Notes under the pieces: generated by a model
What the model was told of the DNA's origin: nothing
The model's database searches: none
Seen by the model: only the letters and a program-made list of their open reading frames with translations
NCBI RefSeq assembly: GCF_000785535.1
Contig: NZ_CP007595.1
Coordinates: forward strand, 2,936,439 to 3,000,438
Source: Arthrobacter sp. PAMC 25486
GTDB taxonomy: Bacteria > Actinomycetota > Actinomycetes > Actinomycetales > Micrococcaceae
DNA length: 64,000 bases
Direction of reading: 5' to 3'
In this document: piece after piece, positions 52,998 through 59,316 of the stretch
Layout: every line of letters begins with the position of its first letter
Position numbering within the stretch: position 1 is the stretch's first letter
Position numbers and translations under genes: made by a program

Positions 52998-53010
52998 TTA
53001 TTGTTGTTTG

Positions 53011-53047
53011 CAAAACCCCCGCGGCGCCTGGCGTTGCGGGGGTTTTG
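53011..53047 (+). terminator. Intrinsic terminator after the universal stress gene
   Basis: CAAAACCCCCGC (53011-53022) pairs with GCGGGGGTTTTG (53036-53047), a 12-bp stem, followed by TGTTTTT. It also lies 38 nt before the end of the convergent ABC permease gene and can act on both strands. Confidence 0.85.
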
Positions 53048-53085
53048 TGTTTTTGGGCGGCACGGGGATGCGTGAAGGGTGCCGC

Positions 53086-54213
53086 TCACGGGACCCGGAG
53101 TTCCTTGATGGGGTCTCGCCAGGCGGCGCCGATCGCAGGGAGGATGGAGGCCGCCAGGCAGGTGAACAGGGTGAGAAGCCCGACGGCGACCAGGTACCCC
53201 AGGCCGGGGACCGGCGAGTTTGTGCCTGCCAGGAAGGTGACGGCTCCAACGGTACCGAGGATAATTCCGGTGGTGGAGACGAGCGCTGCCTGGCCCAGGA
53301 TGAGGCCCATCACCAAGGAGCGTGAGGCGCCGAGCGCGCGGCGGCGTCCGTAGTCCTTGCGCTTGATCATCATAAGCCCGGCTTGAATCGCGGCGACCAA
53401 AACGGCGCTGAGGGCCATGGCGCCGGCAACCATGGATTTTTGGAAGCTGCCGAATTGGCTCGAGAGCAGTCCCGCGAGGTCGGCGAGCTGTTGGCTGGTG
53501 CTCACGCGGAGGTCGTTGGGGTTGTCGCCGACGAGGATGCCGGTGACGATTTTCGTCAGCGCGGCCACGGACGCGGCGTCGGAGGCCGTGACCACCACGG
53601 CAGTGGCGTTGCCGGCCTCGGCGAGGGGCCGGGGGACCACGGCGAGGGGTTCCAGGAAGGCGAGGGCGTCGGGGACCCGCAGGCCCACGGCGGCGGAGTA
53701 GGACGTGCCGGCGGCGGTTTCCACGGCGATGGTCCCGTCCACGGCGCCGATGGTTTTCCCGGCTTGTTCCGACAAGTACAGCACGGAGCCGCTCAGCTCG
53801 GTGGGTTCCTGCGGCAGCGTGCCGAGTCCGAGTTCTGCCGGGGTGTCGGTGTAAAGGGAGCGGACGGGAAGCTTGGTGCCGTAGGTGATGGCCTGGACGT
53901 CGTTGGCGGGTCCGACGGCGGTGAGCTCGGCAACGTTGCCCAATCCGGCCAGGGCGTCGATTGCCTGCGCGTCAAAGGGGGTGCCGCTGGCGGAGGAAAA
54001 CACCAGGGTGCGGGCCCCGGCCGAGTCCAGCGACTCCGTCAGCGCGGTCCGCATTCCCTCGGACTTCCCTGCGGTGAGCAGCACGATCACGCACATGCCC
54101 GCCACGATGATCACGGACAAGATTGAGGCGGCCTTGTACGCGACCATGGAGGCGAAGCTCTCCCGCGCCAGCGCCCGGAACCCCCGCAGCGCAGAGCCTT
54201 GGGTGGCGGTCAT
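53086..54213 (-). CDS. ABC transporter permease, FtsX/MacB type
   Basis: 375 residues from ATG 54213. One helix near the N-terminus (about 27-50), a large extracytoplasmic domain, then three helices at the C-terminus, with RRRALGASRSLVMGL as the cytoplasmic FtsX element. Last gene of the export operon; its start shares ATGA with the ATPase stop. Such permeases act in mechanotransmission or in extrusion of peptides and lipoproteins rather than in import. Confidence 0.88.
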   Translation of the reverse strand: MTATQGSALRGFRALARESFASMVAYKAASILSVIIVAGMCVIVLLTAGKSEGMRTALTESLDSAGARTLVFSSASGTPFDAQAIDALAGLGNVAELTAVGPANDVQAITYGTKLPVRSLYTDTPAELGLGTLPQEPTELSGSVLYLSEQAGKTIGAVDGTIAVETAAGTSYSAAVGLRVPDALAFLEPLAVVPRPLAEAGNATAVVVTASDAASVAALTKIVTGILVGDNPNDLRVSTSQQLADLAGLLSSQFGSFQKSMVAGAMALSAVLVAAIQAGLMMIKRKDYGRRRALGASRSLVMGLILGQAALVSTTGIILGTVGAVTFLAGTNSPVPGLGYLVAVGLLTLFTCLAASILPAIGAAWRDPIKELRVP

Positions 54214-54899
54214 AGTTTCACCACCCGGTCCGCAAGACTGACGACGGCGGGATCGTGCGTTGCGACGATGACCACCCCTCCCGCTTGGGCGTGGGCGTGC
54301 AGGGCGGTGGTGACGATCCCGGAGGATTCGGCGTCGAGGTTTCCCGTGGGCTCGTCCGCCAGCACAATCGAGGGGTTGTGCAGCAGCGCCCGGCACAGGG
54401 CGATCCGCTGGGCCTGCCCGCCGGAGATCTGCCCGGGCTTATGGGTGGCACGTTCGGTCACCCCAAACTGTTCCAACAGTTCCATGGCCCGCGGTGTGCG
54501 GGACTTCTTCGTCTCGCCCCGGTACAGGCAGGTCTCCAACACGTTGTCGAGCACGGTGCGGGTGGGGTCCAGTGCGGAGTCCTGGAACACGAAACCGTAG
54601 GCCGAGGCACGCAAGGCGGCCCGTCCGGCGTCGTTCATGGCAGAAGCATTGGTGCCGGACACGGAAACGTGGCCCGCACTGGGTTTGAGCATGAGGCCCA
54701 GTAAGTAGAGCAGGGTGGATTTGCCGCGGCCGCTGGGACCGGTCAGGATGGTCAGCTCGCCCGGGTGGAAGTCCAGGGACAGGCCGTTGAAGAGTTCCTC
54801 GGTGCGCGGGAATGCGAAGCTGAGGTCCCGGATGGACAGCCCCGTGCCGGGGGTGAAAACGGAAGTGCCCGTGTCGGTCCCGGCGCTTGTGTCGGTCAT
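54210..54899 (-). CDS. ABC transporter ATP-binding protein, MacB/LolD class
   Basis: 229 residues. Walker A GPSGRGKST, Q-loop FVFQDSALDPTRTV, signature SGGQAQR, Walker B IVLADEPTGNLDAES and switch His in THDPAVV. GNLDAES is typical of the LolD/MacB export class. The start at 54899 overlaps the adaptor gene stop by ATGA. Confidence 0.93.
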   Translation of the reverse strand: MTDTSAGTDTGTSVFTPGTGLSIRDLSFAFPRTEELFNGLSLDFHPGELTILTGPSGRGKSTLLYLLGLMLKPSAGHVSVSGTNASAMNDAGRAALRASAYGFVFQDSALDPTRTVLDNVLETCLYRGETKKSRTPRAMELLEQFGVTERATHKPGQISGGQAQRIALCRALLHNPSIVLADEPTGNLDAESSGIVTTALHAHAQAGGVVIVATHDPAVVSLADRVVKL

Positions 54900-56059
54900 G
54901 GTTTTGGGGCTGCCGGCGCCCACAACTGGATGACGGTGCCGGCGTCCACACCTGTCACGATGCTCATGCCCGAGGAGGTCCCGACAACTTCGACGGGCTG
55001 GTCGGTGCCGGATGCCAGCATCACCGAAGTGCCGCCGGAGGCGTTGGTGCGGATCGCCGAGGATGGCACCACCAGCCCTTCCTGGTGCGGGACCAGGGTG
55101 ATTTCCGTGGGGAACAATGCGTCCTTCACCGCCGTGAGTGCCCCGCAGTCCGCCCCGCAGATGGGCGTATCTGTGGCGGATCCGAGCACCAGCAGTTTGT
55201 TGCTTCCGTTGGCCAATTCCCTGATCCCGGAAACCTGGCCCGGCCACCTCGCTTCCCCGTTCTTGATGCTGACCGGAGTTCCCACAGGAATGGTCTGCGC
55301 CTGCTCGTTCGGAACCTCGATGGTGAATTCCGGCACGGCCGAGGCCACGGTCAACACCTTCTCCCCGCCTGCCAGGGTGGCGCCGACGCTGATGATGTCG
55401 GGATCGAACTGAATCCTCGCCGGCAGCCCGGGAGCGAAGATCACGGCCCCGTTTGCTACAGTCCCGGTGTCCTTGGCGCCAATGTCCCTCTGCCACGCCT
55501 TGATGGCCTGGGCAAACACCCAGTCCACCTTGCTGGTCTCCGGGTCCACGCCGTAGCCGCGCTCGGCGAGCATCGCGGCGAGTTGTACGACGTCCGGGCC
55601 TTCCGTTCCCGTGGTGATCTCACGGAACGCCGGGGTGCTCCCTGCGACCAAAGCGACCGGGGCAAGGTCGGCGGCGTAGATCGGATCGCCGGAGACTTTG
55701 GGGTCGGCTACGGGTTCCATGGACGTGACGACGCCCGCGGCGCGGTTGATGCCGGAGGCTTCAGAGCCCCATGCTGCCGCCGCGTTCAACGTGATGGCCT
55801 TGCCAAGGCTGCCTTGCCTCACCGTGAACGTATTCACCACGCTCTGCGCAGTGGTGGCCGGCGGCGGAGTGAAGATCTTCCCCAGCGACCAGCCCGCCAG
55901 CGCAGACACGATGGCCACCCCAATCACCAGAGCAACAATCTTGCCGACGCCGCGTTTTCGCCTCGTGGGCCTGAGCGGCCGGGGCGGCTCGCTTCTGCTG
56001 GGCGCGGATGCGTCCGCCTGCGCGGAATCAACTGTCCTGGCGGAATCCTTGCCGGTCAC
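54896..56059 (-). CDS. Efflux adaptor-like protein with peptidoglycan-binding-like domain
   Basis: 387 residues. A cytoplasmic basic N-terminus, one membrane helix (about 42-62), then an extracytoplasmic membrane-fusion-like protein: VVQLAAMLAERGYGVDPETS resembles a peptidoglycan-binding-1 repeat embedded in the hairpin region, with beta-barrel segments after it (PVGTPVSIKNGEARWPGQVSG). Overlaps its neighbours by ATGA on both sides. Probably links the ATPase/permease pair to the wall or to its cargo. Confidence 0.78.
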   Translation of the reverse strand: MTGKDSARTVDSAQADASAPSRSEPPRPLRPTRRKRGVGKIVALVIGVAIVSALAGWSLGKIFTPPPATTAQSVVNTFTVRQGSLGKAITLNAAAAWGSEASGINRAAGVVTSMEPVADPKVSGDPIYAADLAPVALVAGSTPAFREITTGTEGPDVVQLAAMLAERGYGVDPETSKVDWVFAQAIKAWQRDIGAKDTGTVANGAVIFAPGLPARIQFDPDIISVGATLAGGEKVLTVASAVPEFTIEVPNEQAQTIPVGTPVSIKNGEARWPGQVSGIRELANGSNKLLVLGSATDTPICGADCGALTAVKDALFPTEITLVPHQEGLVVPSSAIRTNASGGTSVMLASGTDQPVEVVGTSSGMSIVTGVDAGTVIQLWAPAAPKP

Positions 56060-56646
56060 AGGGTGTTCGCGTAGTTCAAAGGATCAGGACAGGCCAGGCG
56101 CGCCTCGTCGACGATCGTCTCGCCCGCACTGGATAGCTGCTTCATGGTGTCCAGTCCCCAGGGCGACCACGGCTGATTCTCACCGGGAGCGTCGAATGAC
56201 TCAACGAACGACTGCTCACTGGGGGCATCCGCAACCTGGACCTTGATGTCGCCGAAGATGTCCAGCGCTTCCAAGCACTTGGCGGCTTCAATATTCAGTA
56301 CATAAAGCTTGTGGCGCTGGGCCTCAGTAATTTCGGGCTCGTCATTGAAGCCCAGTTCGTCATAACAATCCCGAATGCCCTGGTAAGCCAGATCCAACTG
56401 ATCTTCCGGCACCTGCTCGTTGCCGAATTTGACGCCGCCCTGAGAGTCGGGGAGAACAGTAAATCCCTTGTCTTTCATGCATGAAACCTGCAGGTGTGCC
56501 TGCTCCATCCGGAAATCAGGATTCAACGCCTTGTAGTCCTTGGCGGATTCAGACTCGGCCGGGCTGCAGCCGGTCATGACCAAGAGCGCCAGCACTGCCA
56601 CGCCTGCGAAGGCGGCGGAAGTGCGGGTAGAGCGGCGGTGCAGCAT
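56056..56646 (-). CDS. Lipoprotein, unknown family
   Basis: 196 residues from ATG 56646, preferred because GGGGGA lies 7 nt upstream; 56652 and 56661 are in-frame alternatives. A lipobox (LLVMTGC, Cys27) and a mature acidic domain with four further Cys (VSCMKDKGF, IRDCYDELGF, AAKCLEALDI, ARLACPDP). First gene of the export operon. As a surface protein it may bind or deliver the exported substrate. Confidence 0.75.
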   Translation of the reverse strand: MLHRRSTRTSAAFAGVAVLALLVMTGCSPAESESAKDYKALNPDFRMEQAHLQVSCMKDKGFTVLPDSQGGVKFGNEQVPEDQLDLAYQGIRDCYDELGFNDEPEITEAQRHKLYVLNIEAAKCLEALDIFGDIKVQVADAPSEQSFVESFDAPGENQPWSPWGLDTMKQLSSAGETIVDEARLACPDPLNYANTL

Positions 56647-56718
56647 GGACATGTCCCCCATCGGCCATTCATTATTGATACCAATTCGACACTACCGGTG
56701 ATTAGCATCACGGTAGAA

Positions 56719-57030
56719 ATGTGTGACGGCGCGGAATCGTCCGAAACTAGGCCTGTGGCATCTCCAGTAGCGCGAGTGATCCGGGCATTTACGCTGCGCC
56801 TTGAGGAAGCCGACGGTGCCCTGGAAGTACTGGCGCGCCACGGCATGGCTGCCAACCTCCGCGACCCACGGCTGCAACCCTGTCCACCGGTGGACTCGGA
56901 GGGTTTAATGAGCAACCCTCCCGGCGAGGCCCAGTCAACTGTGAATGCCAGTTTCTGGAAGCATCTCCCGACCTCAAGATTGAGCGCGCAGATCGACTGC
57001 AGGGTTCCATCGCCAATGCCCCTCCAGTGA
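56719..57030 (+). CDS. Possible hypothetical protein
   Basis: 103 residues if started at ATG 56719. The reading has an ordinary high-GC codon pattern (VARVIRAFTLRLEEADGALEVL) but no ribosome site of note and no recognised domain. It lies between the lipoprotein promoter and the small-peptide terminator. Could be chance; kept because nothing else fills 56662-57041. Confidence 0.25.
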   Translation: MCDGAESSETRPVASPVARVIRAFTLRLEEADGALEVLARHGMAANLRDPRLQPCPPVDSEGLMSNPPGEAQSTVNASFWKHLPTSRLSAQIDCRVPSPMPLQ

Positions 57031-57041
57031 ACGGGGCAAAC

Positions 57042-57098
57042 AAAAAAAGCTGCCGGCGCGATTCGAAAGTCCCACTTTCAAATCGCGCCGGCAGCTTT
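57042..57098 (-). terminator. Very strong terminator of the small-peptide unit
   Basis: Arms 57074-57098 and 57046-57070 form a 25-bp stem on the minus strand with one U-G pair and a GGG loop, followed by a seven-base T-run ending at 57042. It begins 18 nt after the peptide stop codon. Nearly ideal rho-independent geometry. Confidence 0.9.
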
Positions 57099-57115
57099 GC
57101 AAGCCGGATTCCGAC

Positions 57116-57172
57116 TTACAGGCCCAGCGAACGAAGCAGGGCAATGAGGAGATCAAGAAGGTTGGTCAACAT
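57116..57172 (-). CDS. 18-residue leucine-rich amphipathic peptide
   Basis: Reads MLTNLLDLLIALLRSLGL, 18 codons with 9 Leu. A GAAAGGA ribosome site stands 8 nt before ATG 57172, and a 25-bp terminator follows at once. On a helical wheel Thr3, Asn4, Asp7, Arg14 and Ser15 fall on one side with Leu/Ile on the other, a charge-neutral amphipathic helix like phenol-soluble modulins or type I toxin peptides. The surroundings are low-GC and otherwise empty. A leucine-sensing leader peptide is the other reading, but no leucine gene follows. Confidence 0.6.
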   Translation of the reverse strand: MLTNLLDLLIALLRSLGL

Positions 57173-57235
57173 TTTTGCGGTCCTTTCATGTGGAAATCAG
57201 TGTGTGGTCATTTTCGAATGATAGTCGAATTAGCT

Positions 57236-57267
57236 GCAAAACACTTGTCAATGGTCAATTGTTTTGC
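57236..57267. promoter_or_regulatory. Inverted repeat upstream of the small peptide
   Basis: GCAAAACA (57236-57243) and TGTTTTGC (57260-57267) are perfect complements with a 16-bp spacer, which contains a smaller TTGTCAA / TTGACC-type pairing. It lies 64-95 bp before the peptide ATG. The minus-strand sequence TTGACA within it could be a -35. Likely operator for the peptide unit. Confidence 0.45.
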
Positions 57268-57851
57268 CTCCAGCAGTAGAATACTCGAAATTTTATTGAC
57301 TGCAAATTGTTCAGAATCCGTTGCTTCGGCAATGTTACAAGGTTCCGTAACAACGACTGATTGGACTTTTTCGCATCTTCCGCAGTCGTGGGAACGTGGG
57401 CCCGCCAACCGCAAGCATCGAGCGCACGCGCCTGAAACCAGGCGTAGATGCGGGAAGTTCCACTTGTTTGGGCGGCCATCAAGCTTGCCCTTGATGGCGG
57501 ATTAATCAATTGAAATGATTATTGCAAGATTATTAATGGTGGCCTTTTGGATAGTTTATCCGGGCTCCCTTTTGCGCCTGAAAAGATAGCCGTGAGCTTC
57601 CATTGGTGGCAAGCTGTTCGGCTAATAGACTCACCGGTTGGTTAATTTCTCCGGGTATCTTCGGGCGGCACTGCCGTGAAATGCTGCATCGCCGCTTGGC
57701 CATTCGGGTAATTGGCGTTTTGTGTTCCCGTTTGTCCAATCGAAGGGGAAATCTAATCCCCTCAAGTGTGCGCTCGTGAGGTGGGCTGACCTTTTGGGCA
57801 GCCTAGGCTTTTTGGATAATTTTATGGCAAGCAGAGCCAAGGCCATTTGTG
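57268..57851. other. AT-richer intergenic region, no gene supported
   Basis: About 580 bp with frequent stop codons in all frames and lower GC than anything nearby. It holds a GCCATCAAG/CTTGATGGC hairpin (57475-57483 with 57490-57498) without T-tract. A hydrophobic 24-codon frame starts at 57515 without a ribosome site. I see no conserved coding sequence. Probably regulatory or decayed DNA linked to the small-peptide unit. Confidence 0.4.
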
Positions 57852-58016
57852 CTAGGGGAAGGTGAAAAACGCGGTGACAATCCGCTCGAGAAGTGGTGAG
57901 AGTTCTGCCGGGTACGTGCGGGCCGGCCGCACCATCATGGCAAACCAGCCATTCTCGTCCAGCAGCTCCCAGCCCTCACCTGCTTCCTTGAAAGCGGCCT
58001 CGTCCCAGTGCTTCAT
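57852..58016 (-). CDS. Small hypothetical protein after the glycosidase genes
   Basis: 54 residues from ATG 58016, 25 nt after the glycosidase stop on the same strand. Soluble, with many aromatic and acidic residues (AFKEAGEGWELLDENGW, FAMMVRPARTYP). Weak ribosome site. No family recognised. It may be the C-terminal remnant of a longer gene, since the frame is open upstream within the glycosidase. Confidence 0.4.
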   Translation of the reverse strand: MKHWDEAAFKEAGEGWELLDENGWFAMMVRPARTYPAELSPLLERIVTAFFTFP

Positions 58017-58041
58017 TGCGTACCCACGGCTACAACCAGTG

Positions 58042-59316
58042 CTACACGACCACGTCGGTGATGCCGCGGGCGGCGAGGTAGCCGGCGTCGGACGTGGTGG
58101 AGGCGCGGACCAGGGCAGGCTTAGTGCCCGAGGCGGCACGCGCCAGCCAAGACGTGAACAGCTCGCCGGAAGGATCGGCCACCGAGCGGCCAATTCCTGT
58201 GGCCTCGTCCCCCGGTTCGAAGGACAGTGCCGTACTGCGCTGGACCGGGGCCGTGGGGTTGGCCTTCTCGGCGGCAATCAGCTCGGCCAGGCGCAGGCCT
58301 GCGGGCTTGGGGCGGCGGTTCGAATCCAGCAGGCCCAGCGTGTATTCCAGCTCGGGGAAATCGGCCAACTTGCGGCTGACATCGTGAGAACACCACCAGG
58401 TGACACCCCACAGGTTCGGCGTATCCAGCACGGGGCGCAGACTCTGCTCCAGGAAGTCCGCCGCACCGTCGAAGGGAACAGCCGGGTACGGCGCGCCAAT
58501 CTCCTGCAGCCAGATGGGCCGGGCGGGATCGTCGGCGTAGGCGTCGGCCAGTTGGACCAGATAGTCGGCAAACAGCGTGCGTGCCGGGTGCCCCTGCGGA
58601 AACAGGTGCGCCACGGCCACAAACACCCACGAGTGCACCGTGGTGGCATTCCCAAGCGTGGCCGCGTGCCTTGGAGTGACTGGGCAGCTGTCCACAAACC
58701 AGGCGTTGTCGTCAAAGCTGTGCTGGTGCATGCCGGTGGGCCAGGCCTTGCGGGCAGCGGCGAGGAGCGTTTTGAACCACTCGCCCATTTCCACGGGCGT
58801 GGTGAGCTGCTGCTCGGGGTGGCGTTCCACGGCGAACTGGTTCGTCTCGTTGCCCACCGTCATGCCAAGCACATTTTCGCGCGACCCGACCTCGGTGGCC
58901 AGCGCCGTGATGAGCCGCGCCTCGGCCTCAACCACTTCCGGGTCGGTGTAGATGTTGCGGCGGTGCCAGCTGGTCACCCATGCGGGCAGGAAGTCGAAGC
59001 TGGACAGGTGCCCCTGCAGGCCGTCAACCGAAACGTCCAGGCCGAACTCCGCGGCGGCGTCCACCACACGTCCCACATCGGCAATGCCGGCCGGGCGGAT
59101 CAAAGCACGGTTCGGCTGCAGCAGCGGCCACAGCGGGAAAATGCGCACATGGTCCAGGCCCAGCCTTGCGATGGACTCAAAGTCAGCACGCACCGCGTCC
59201 ACATCGAAGTCCTGCCACGAATGGAACCAGCCCTCGCTCGGGGTGTAGTTCACGCCCCAGCGCAGCGGATTCCTCCGGCGGGACGGGACGGATGCCGCGG
59301 GGAAGCGGAGGTTCAT
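58042..59316 (-). CDS. Glycoside hydrolase, GH5-like TIM barrel
   Basis: 424 residues. A (beta/alpha)8 retaining glycosidase of clan A: acid/base Glu in GMTVGNETNQF and nucleophile Glu in IWLQEIGAP, with LGLDHVRIFPLWPLL on an early strand. No signal peptide. Overlaps the alpha-mannosidase stop by ATGA, so it probably works on the same mannose-containing glycans, for example as a beta-mannosidase or mannanase-like enzyme. Exact subfamily uncertain. Confidence 0.8.
   Translation of the reverse strand: MNLRFPAASVPSRRRNPLRWGVNYTPSEGWFHSWQDFDVDAVRADFESIARLGLDHVRIFPLWPLLQPNRALIRPAGIADVGRVVDAAAEFGLDVSVDGLQGHLSSFDFLPAWVTSWHRRNIYTDPEVVEAEARLITALATEVGSRENVLGMTVGNETNQFAVERHPEQQLTTPVEMGEWFKTLLAAARKAWPTGMHQHSFDDNAWFVDSCPVTPRHAATLGNATTVHSWVFVAVAHLFPQGHPARTLFADYLVQLADAYADDPARPIWLQEIGAPYPAVPFDGAADFLEQSLRPVLDTPNLWGVTWWCSHDVSRKLADFPELEYTLGLLDSNRRPKPAGLRLAELIAAEKANPTAPVQRSTALSFEPGDEATGIGRSVADPSGELFTSWLARAASGTKPALVRASTTSDAGYLAARGITDVVV

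Follow-up and report, generated by a model that had tools for sequence, protein, structure and literature searches.

The feature lies on the minus strand of the window, the 64,000-nucleotide stretch of Arthrobacter sp. PAMC 25486 DNA that was analysed, and centers on an 18-codon open reading frame at 57116–57172 that begins with ATG, ends with TAA, and encodes MLTNLLDLLIALLRSLGL, in which 9 of the 18 residues are leucine. A Shine-Dalgarno (SD) sequence, AAAGGA, is located at 57181–57186, 8 nt ahead of the ATG. Behind the ORF, at 57042–57098, is a hairpin resembling an intrinsic terminator: its 25-nt arms (57046–57070 and 57074–57098) are 96% complementary, are separated by a 3-nt loop, and are accompanied by a run of seven Ts at 57042–57048, three of which fall within the stem. 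The sole pair of the 25-bp stem that is not Watson–Crick is a G–U wobble on the minus strand and a C–A mismatch on the plus strand. On both strands of the window this is the longest uninterrupted stem; the second longest has 19 bp. RNA folding predicts a smaller, 10-bp hairpin (57098–57120, minus strand) spanning the stop codon and immediately preceding the large hairpin, and the predicted peptide transcript folds with a z score of −5.9, none of 200 shuffled sequences being equally stable. Upstream of the ORF, a 32-nt imperfect palindrome, GCAAAACAnTTG-N8-CAAnTGTTTTGC, occurs once in the window at 57236–57267; its 12-nt arms (57236–57247 and 57256–57267) are 92% complementary and 8 nt apart, and it overlaps a −35-like TTGACA. 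The palindrome is a possible operator. A weak candidate promoter on the minus strand (57223–57251), recognized by eye, pairs TTGACA (57251–57246) with TCGACT (57228–57223) across 17 nt; a consensus promoter scan gave no call there. Re-reading of the sequence thus recovers each element named in the preliminary description of this DNA: the inverted repeat, the ribosome site, the minus-strand frame with half its codons for leucine, and the 25-bp terminator with its T7 run.

The unit was also said to lie in low-GC DNA with no other gene. Indeed the GC content from about 57000 to 57899 is 46–53%, against 53–71% in the flanks, and no second convincing ORF was found in that stretch. About 840 bases at 57200–58040 (46–57% GC), which are without a convincing gene and contain an imperfect 26-nt inverted repeat at 57458–57515, separate the peptide unit from a 424-residue minus-strand ORF (58042–59316) that was labelled glycosidase-like by eye and has no Pfam match. 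On the other side, genes for a lipoprotein, an adaptor with a peptidoglycan-binding domain, an ABC ATPase, and an FtsX-like permease occupy 53086–56661 on the minus strand.

Among the 72 SD-bearing ATG ORFs of 12–40 residues in the 64-kb window, the peptide has a leucine share of 50% and the runner-up 23%, and 60 dinucleotide shuffles produced no ORF of 15 or more residues with 40% leucine; the leucine and length thresholds of both comparisons were chosen after the ORF had been seen. A post hoc filter for leucine content and hydrophobicity, applied to 610 distinct SD-bearing ORFs of 14–35 residues in 685 kb of high-GC sequence, was passed only by the five peptides of the family described here.

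Comparative evidence supports the frame beyond its composition. A search of 98 relatives with a 261-base DNA query gave one strong match besides the source itself (G000), in the congener G015 (E = 1.8e-19). The orthologous frame (L008:1519–1575) encodes MLTNLLDIIIALLRSLGL and a stop; it is preceded by AAAGGG and followed by a 16-bp hairpin. The two ORFs differ by nine substitutions, seven of them at third codon positions, and by two residue changes, both Leu to Ile. When substitutions were placed at random, the frame was kept with so few residue changes in 0.57% of simulations, a p-value (about 0.006) that rests on the nine substitutions. A second pair of genomes from another family, G088 and G448, carries a longer version of the peptide; between their ORFs there are 22 substitutions, of which 14 fall at third positions, and eight residue changes, and as few residue changes with an intact frame arose in 0.43% of simulations (p about 0.004). 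The two pairs therefore agree in showing a conserved frame with synonymous-biased changes; the lack of frame conservation in relatives that the preliminary description named as counter-evidence is thus not observed.

These comparisons bear on the proposal that the ORF is incidental and that the transcript works as a small RNA without coding function or as a 3′ element of an mRNA. The very stable predicted structure would suit such an RNA, and since no Rfam family is found in the window, the RNA might be an undescribed one. The synonymous bias in two independent pairs, the conservation of frame and SD sequence, and the divergence of the hairpin sequences where the peptide is kept all argue against this explanation and make it highly improbable.

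The G015 copy occupies the same syntenic interval as the one in the window, flanked by a GH38 alpha-mannosidase at one end and, farther out at the other end, by a Usp gene. The genes adjoining the peptide differ: in the window they are the conserved glycosidase-like ORF, the lipoprotein, and the ABC/FtsX genes, and in G015 an acyl-CoA dehydrogenase. A mannosidase match is present in all 23 genomes of the genus, and the peptide gene is patchy, occurring in 2 of the 23. No leucine-rich SD-bearing ORF of the peptide type was found in the mannosidase-downstream stretches of 20 further congeners, a scan that leaves out G017, which has only a distant mannosidase paralog; the ORF scan also flagged one unrelated 13-residue ORF in G015. 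Similarity to the peptide unit was likewise absent from the 17 congeners in which the interval could be delimited. Because the gene is missing from the orthologous stretches of 20 congeners and is so patchy, it is dispensable. On a tree of mannosidase fragments comprising 21 of the 23 rows (the segment of G019 has no mannosidase match, and G017 has only the paralog), the two carriers are not sisters; two changes are needed, and a single change sufficed in 0% of 200 bootstrap trees. The tree is compatible both with a single ancestral gene that was lost several times and with spread at one site.

A leucine-rich ORF with a terminator directly after it could also be a leader peptide, the hairpin acting as a ribosome-mediated leucine attenuator of the next gene. 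Half of the codons specify leucine, and leader peptides with terminators have been reported in Actinobacteria (PMC1262725); those of ilvB and leuS likewise consist of a short ORF, in which one amino acid is abundant, and then a terminator, and they sit upstream of amino-acid genes. Moreover, when the 3′ arm is withheld, the 5′ arm of the terminator pairs with RNA upstream of the stop codon with a mean probability of 0.52–0.75. The present unit differs from these leaders in three respects. First, the genes downstream vary and none is a leucine or other amino-acid gene: in the window they are a lipoprotein without a Pfam match and the ABC/FtsX genes, in G015 the acyl-CoA dehydrogenase, which occurs without the peptide in 14 of the 20 congener stretches, and beside the longer versions in G088 and G448 they are, by eye, SIMPL-like and lipoprotein-like ORFs. 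Second, no competitive antiterminator is apparent: pairing of the two terminator arms is worth −29 to −46 kcal/mol, whereas the best upstream competitor reaches −12 to −26 kcal/mol and is weaker by 13–32 kcal/mol in all five units. Third, Ile or Val replaces Leu in the relatives, and therefore hydrophobicity rather than the leucine codons is the conserved feature. Together with the absence of any Rfam match in the window, these differences make a classical leucine attenuator very unlikely. Comparative evidence instead points to a real, stand-alone small gene of previously unannotated appearance, as had been proposed, with a conserved frame and its own hairpin and T7 run 3′ of the ORF.

The longer versions are found in another family of the order, where G088, G448, and G450 have 25-residue counterparts that end in LGLLG[SG]LGL-stop and are followed by strong tandem hairpins. 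At the DNA level the G088 match is weak (E = 0.0033 per genome, among 98 genomes). Its ATG frame, MLDPVLGLLDTVLALLLGLLGSLGL, lies between nagB and the next gene, has the same SLGL-stop end, is preceded by a weaker SD sequence, GGGG, and has two strong hairpins on its 3′ side. G448, a congener of G088, encodes MLDTILGLLEPVLSIVLGLLGGLGL adjoining nagB, and the G450 peptide, MLDTILGLIEPVLSIVLGLLGGLGL, was found by profile search. About 30–50 nt 5′ of the G088 ATG (region L009:1570–1640) is a palindrome, CGACATA-N6-TATGTCG, of which G448 (L218:1580–1650) and G450 have imperfect versions; it may be an operator or a 5′ hairpin. Three consecutive hairpins, beyond what a terminator needs, lie 3′ of the ORF in G448 (L218) and G450 (L241).

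Profile searches delimit the family closely. A profile of all five peptides (alignment A4) run against 47 genomes retrieved the five members at E ≤ 1.3e-5, the next match (0.078) lying within a 376-codon frame. A previous profile of four rows, run on 376 genomes of the order, recovered four members and no further credible match, and a five-row profile found only the window in 396 genomes of the phylum, where the next match (3.7e-4) was inside a 134-codon frame. One copy per genome was detected. The alignment keeps a C-terminal L-L-x-x-L-G-L, residue changes among relatives (Leu to Ile or Val) hold hydrophobicity, the SD sequence is retained, and a strong hairpin, not identical in the four relatives to that of the window, stands 3′ of the ORF in all five.

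The 18-mer aligns to the 25-mer with a single gap of seven residues, a length of two helical turns that leaves the polar positions in phase. Against full shuffles, 0 to 5 of 5000 sequences matched as well (p 0–0.001); when the shuffles kept the hydrophobic/polar pattern, p was only 0.03–0.14, and convergence is therefore possible. The 18- and 25-residue groups share a common design, and their common descent is likely on the sequence comparison.

None of the three 25-mers matched a family at E ≤ 10 in Pfam, NCBIfam, PHROGs, or PADLOC, nor did the 18-mer padded with two alanines or the G088 25-mer in Pfam and NCBIfam; PDB sequences had no match to the G448 25-mer. Searches against plasmids and phages came back empty, but a query of this type may be masked by low-complexity filtering. 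Among viral contigs, the peptide pattern occurred in 104 stretches, of which tblastn, a weak test for 25 residues, retained none, and a pattern scan of genome contigs yielded no member among the at least 117 stretches listed, chiefly from AT-rich genomes. A search of the literature found nothing on these peptides, which is no proof of their absence from print. A pattern for the C-terminal tail gave nine matches in eight of 395 genomes of the family, against 19 for the reversed control, three against three in the 23 congeners, and five against 11 in 396 genomes of the order; because the pattern demands Ser at the fourth-last residue and so misses G448 and G450, which have Gly, these counts are lower bounds.

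Several candidates were set aside. Tail-pattern matches outside G000, G015, and G088 lay in frames of 8–99 codons without a comparable hairpin or ATG/SD context. DNA matches in G440 (1.9e-7) and G442 (6.2e-7) fall within coding sequence that has no peptide ORF; profile matches in G672, G919, and other genomes lie inside long frames (G919 judged by frame only); and L246, L254, and L255 contain no ATG/SD ORF of the peptide type.

An amphipathic helix acting on membranes had been suggested for the 18-mer. The helical pattern is borne out: the hydrophobic moment peaks at 99–102 degrees per residue in all five peptides (permutation p 0.0009–0.010). Action on the membrane is a reading of that shape. 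Mean hydrophobicity is 0.92–0.96, and side-chain charge is 0 in the 18-mers and −2 in the 25-mers. The polar stripe of the 18-mer consists of Thr3, Asn4, Asp7, Ala11, Arg14, and Ser15, and that of the 25-mers is largely Gly, Ser, Asp, Glu, and Thr. A length of 18–25 residues leaves no room for a signal peptide. These properties suggest a membrane-seeking helix, possibly self-associating. The explanation that we consider best, and reasonably probable, is that of a stand-alone gene with a short mRNA of its own, which would stop at a strong intrinsic terminator and be translated into the 18-residue peptide; transcription, translation, helix formation, and membrane binding are all deduced from sequence. 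On lipid the peptide would form a single amphipathic helix, with a Leu/Ile face and a narrow face of Thr, Asn, Asp, Ala, Arg, and Ser, and would work by inserting into the membrane or lying on it. Self-association would most likely run along the small/polar stripe, which Gly and Ser line in the 25-residue form. Action on the producing cell, whether regulatory or resembling that of a type I toxin, is a tentative suggestion; action after release, as a surfactant like the phenol-soluble modulins (PSMs), is slightly more doubtful.

TisB, Ibs, and other type I toxins are tiny hydrophobic peptides made from structured mRNA. A toxin of this kind, depolarizing the cell's own membrane and silenced by an antisense RNA, would account for the size and hydrophobicity of the present peptide, its single helix, the stable structure of its mRNA, and its patchy occurrence. 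In contrast to TisB and Ibs, the peptide has a clear polar stripe; it shows no sequence match to any family in the libraries searched, only one copy per genome was found, and no antisense or trans-acting RNA antitoxin was detected, a simple sigma-70 consensus scan, which does not suit every actinobacterial promoter, having placed no plus-strand antisense promoter near the ORF. We judge such a toxin rather unlikely.

The PSMs of staphylococci are short, leaderless, amphipathic helices that gene callers miss for their size, and the likeness to the peptide is drawn here on these features and not on sequence. A secreted PSM-like surfactant or signal peptide would fit the length and the lack of a signal sequence, and the window copy has close behind it, in the same orientation, genes for an ABC transporter set of ATPase and FtsX-like permease. 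That set adjoins the window copy only: it is absent from the G015 interval, no transporter-looking ORF was read by eye beside the G088 and G448 copies, and thus no exporter is conserved beside the gene. The peptides are also neutral or acidic, Leu/Gly-rich, and encoded by a single gene in a different phylum. A secreted role seems improbable, about as much so as the toxin.

Tentatively, the membrane helix that we favor may represent a new Micrococcales family, a minimal amphipathic helix in two forms that differ by seven residues, exactly two turns, with the stripe in register. Self-assembly along the Gly/Ser stripe might tune or permeabilize the membrane, and the tiny units, perhaps under operator control, might be gained and lost rapidly between species. 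Annotation pipelines and protein databases do not handle genes of so small a length, and peptides of this kind therefore go largely unseen in Actinobacteria. The two forms of 18 and 25 residues make up a small, directly synthesizable set with which to ask how little sequence makes a functional membrane helix.

The surroundings of the gene show some regularities of their own. Of the 20 congener stretches, 16 retain the glycosidase-like ORF next to the GH38 mannosidase, whereas the G015 interval lacks it, and in 14 of the 20 the acyl-CoA dehydrogenase takes the place of the genes at 53086–56661. Beside the Usp gene, at 53009–53049, is a 19-bp hairpin; the G002 and G012 intervals contain CCCCCGC-type hairpins that resemble it.
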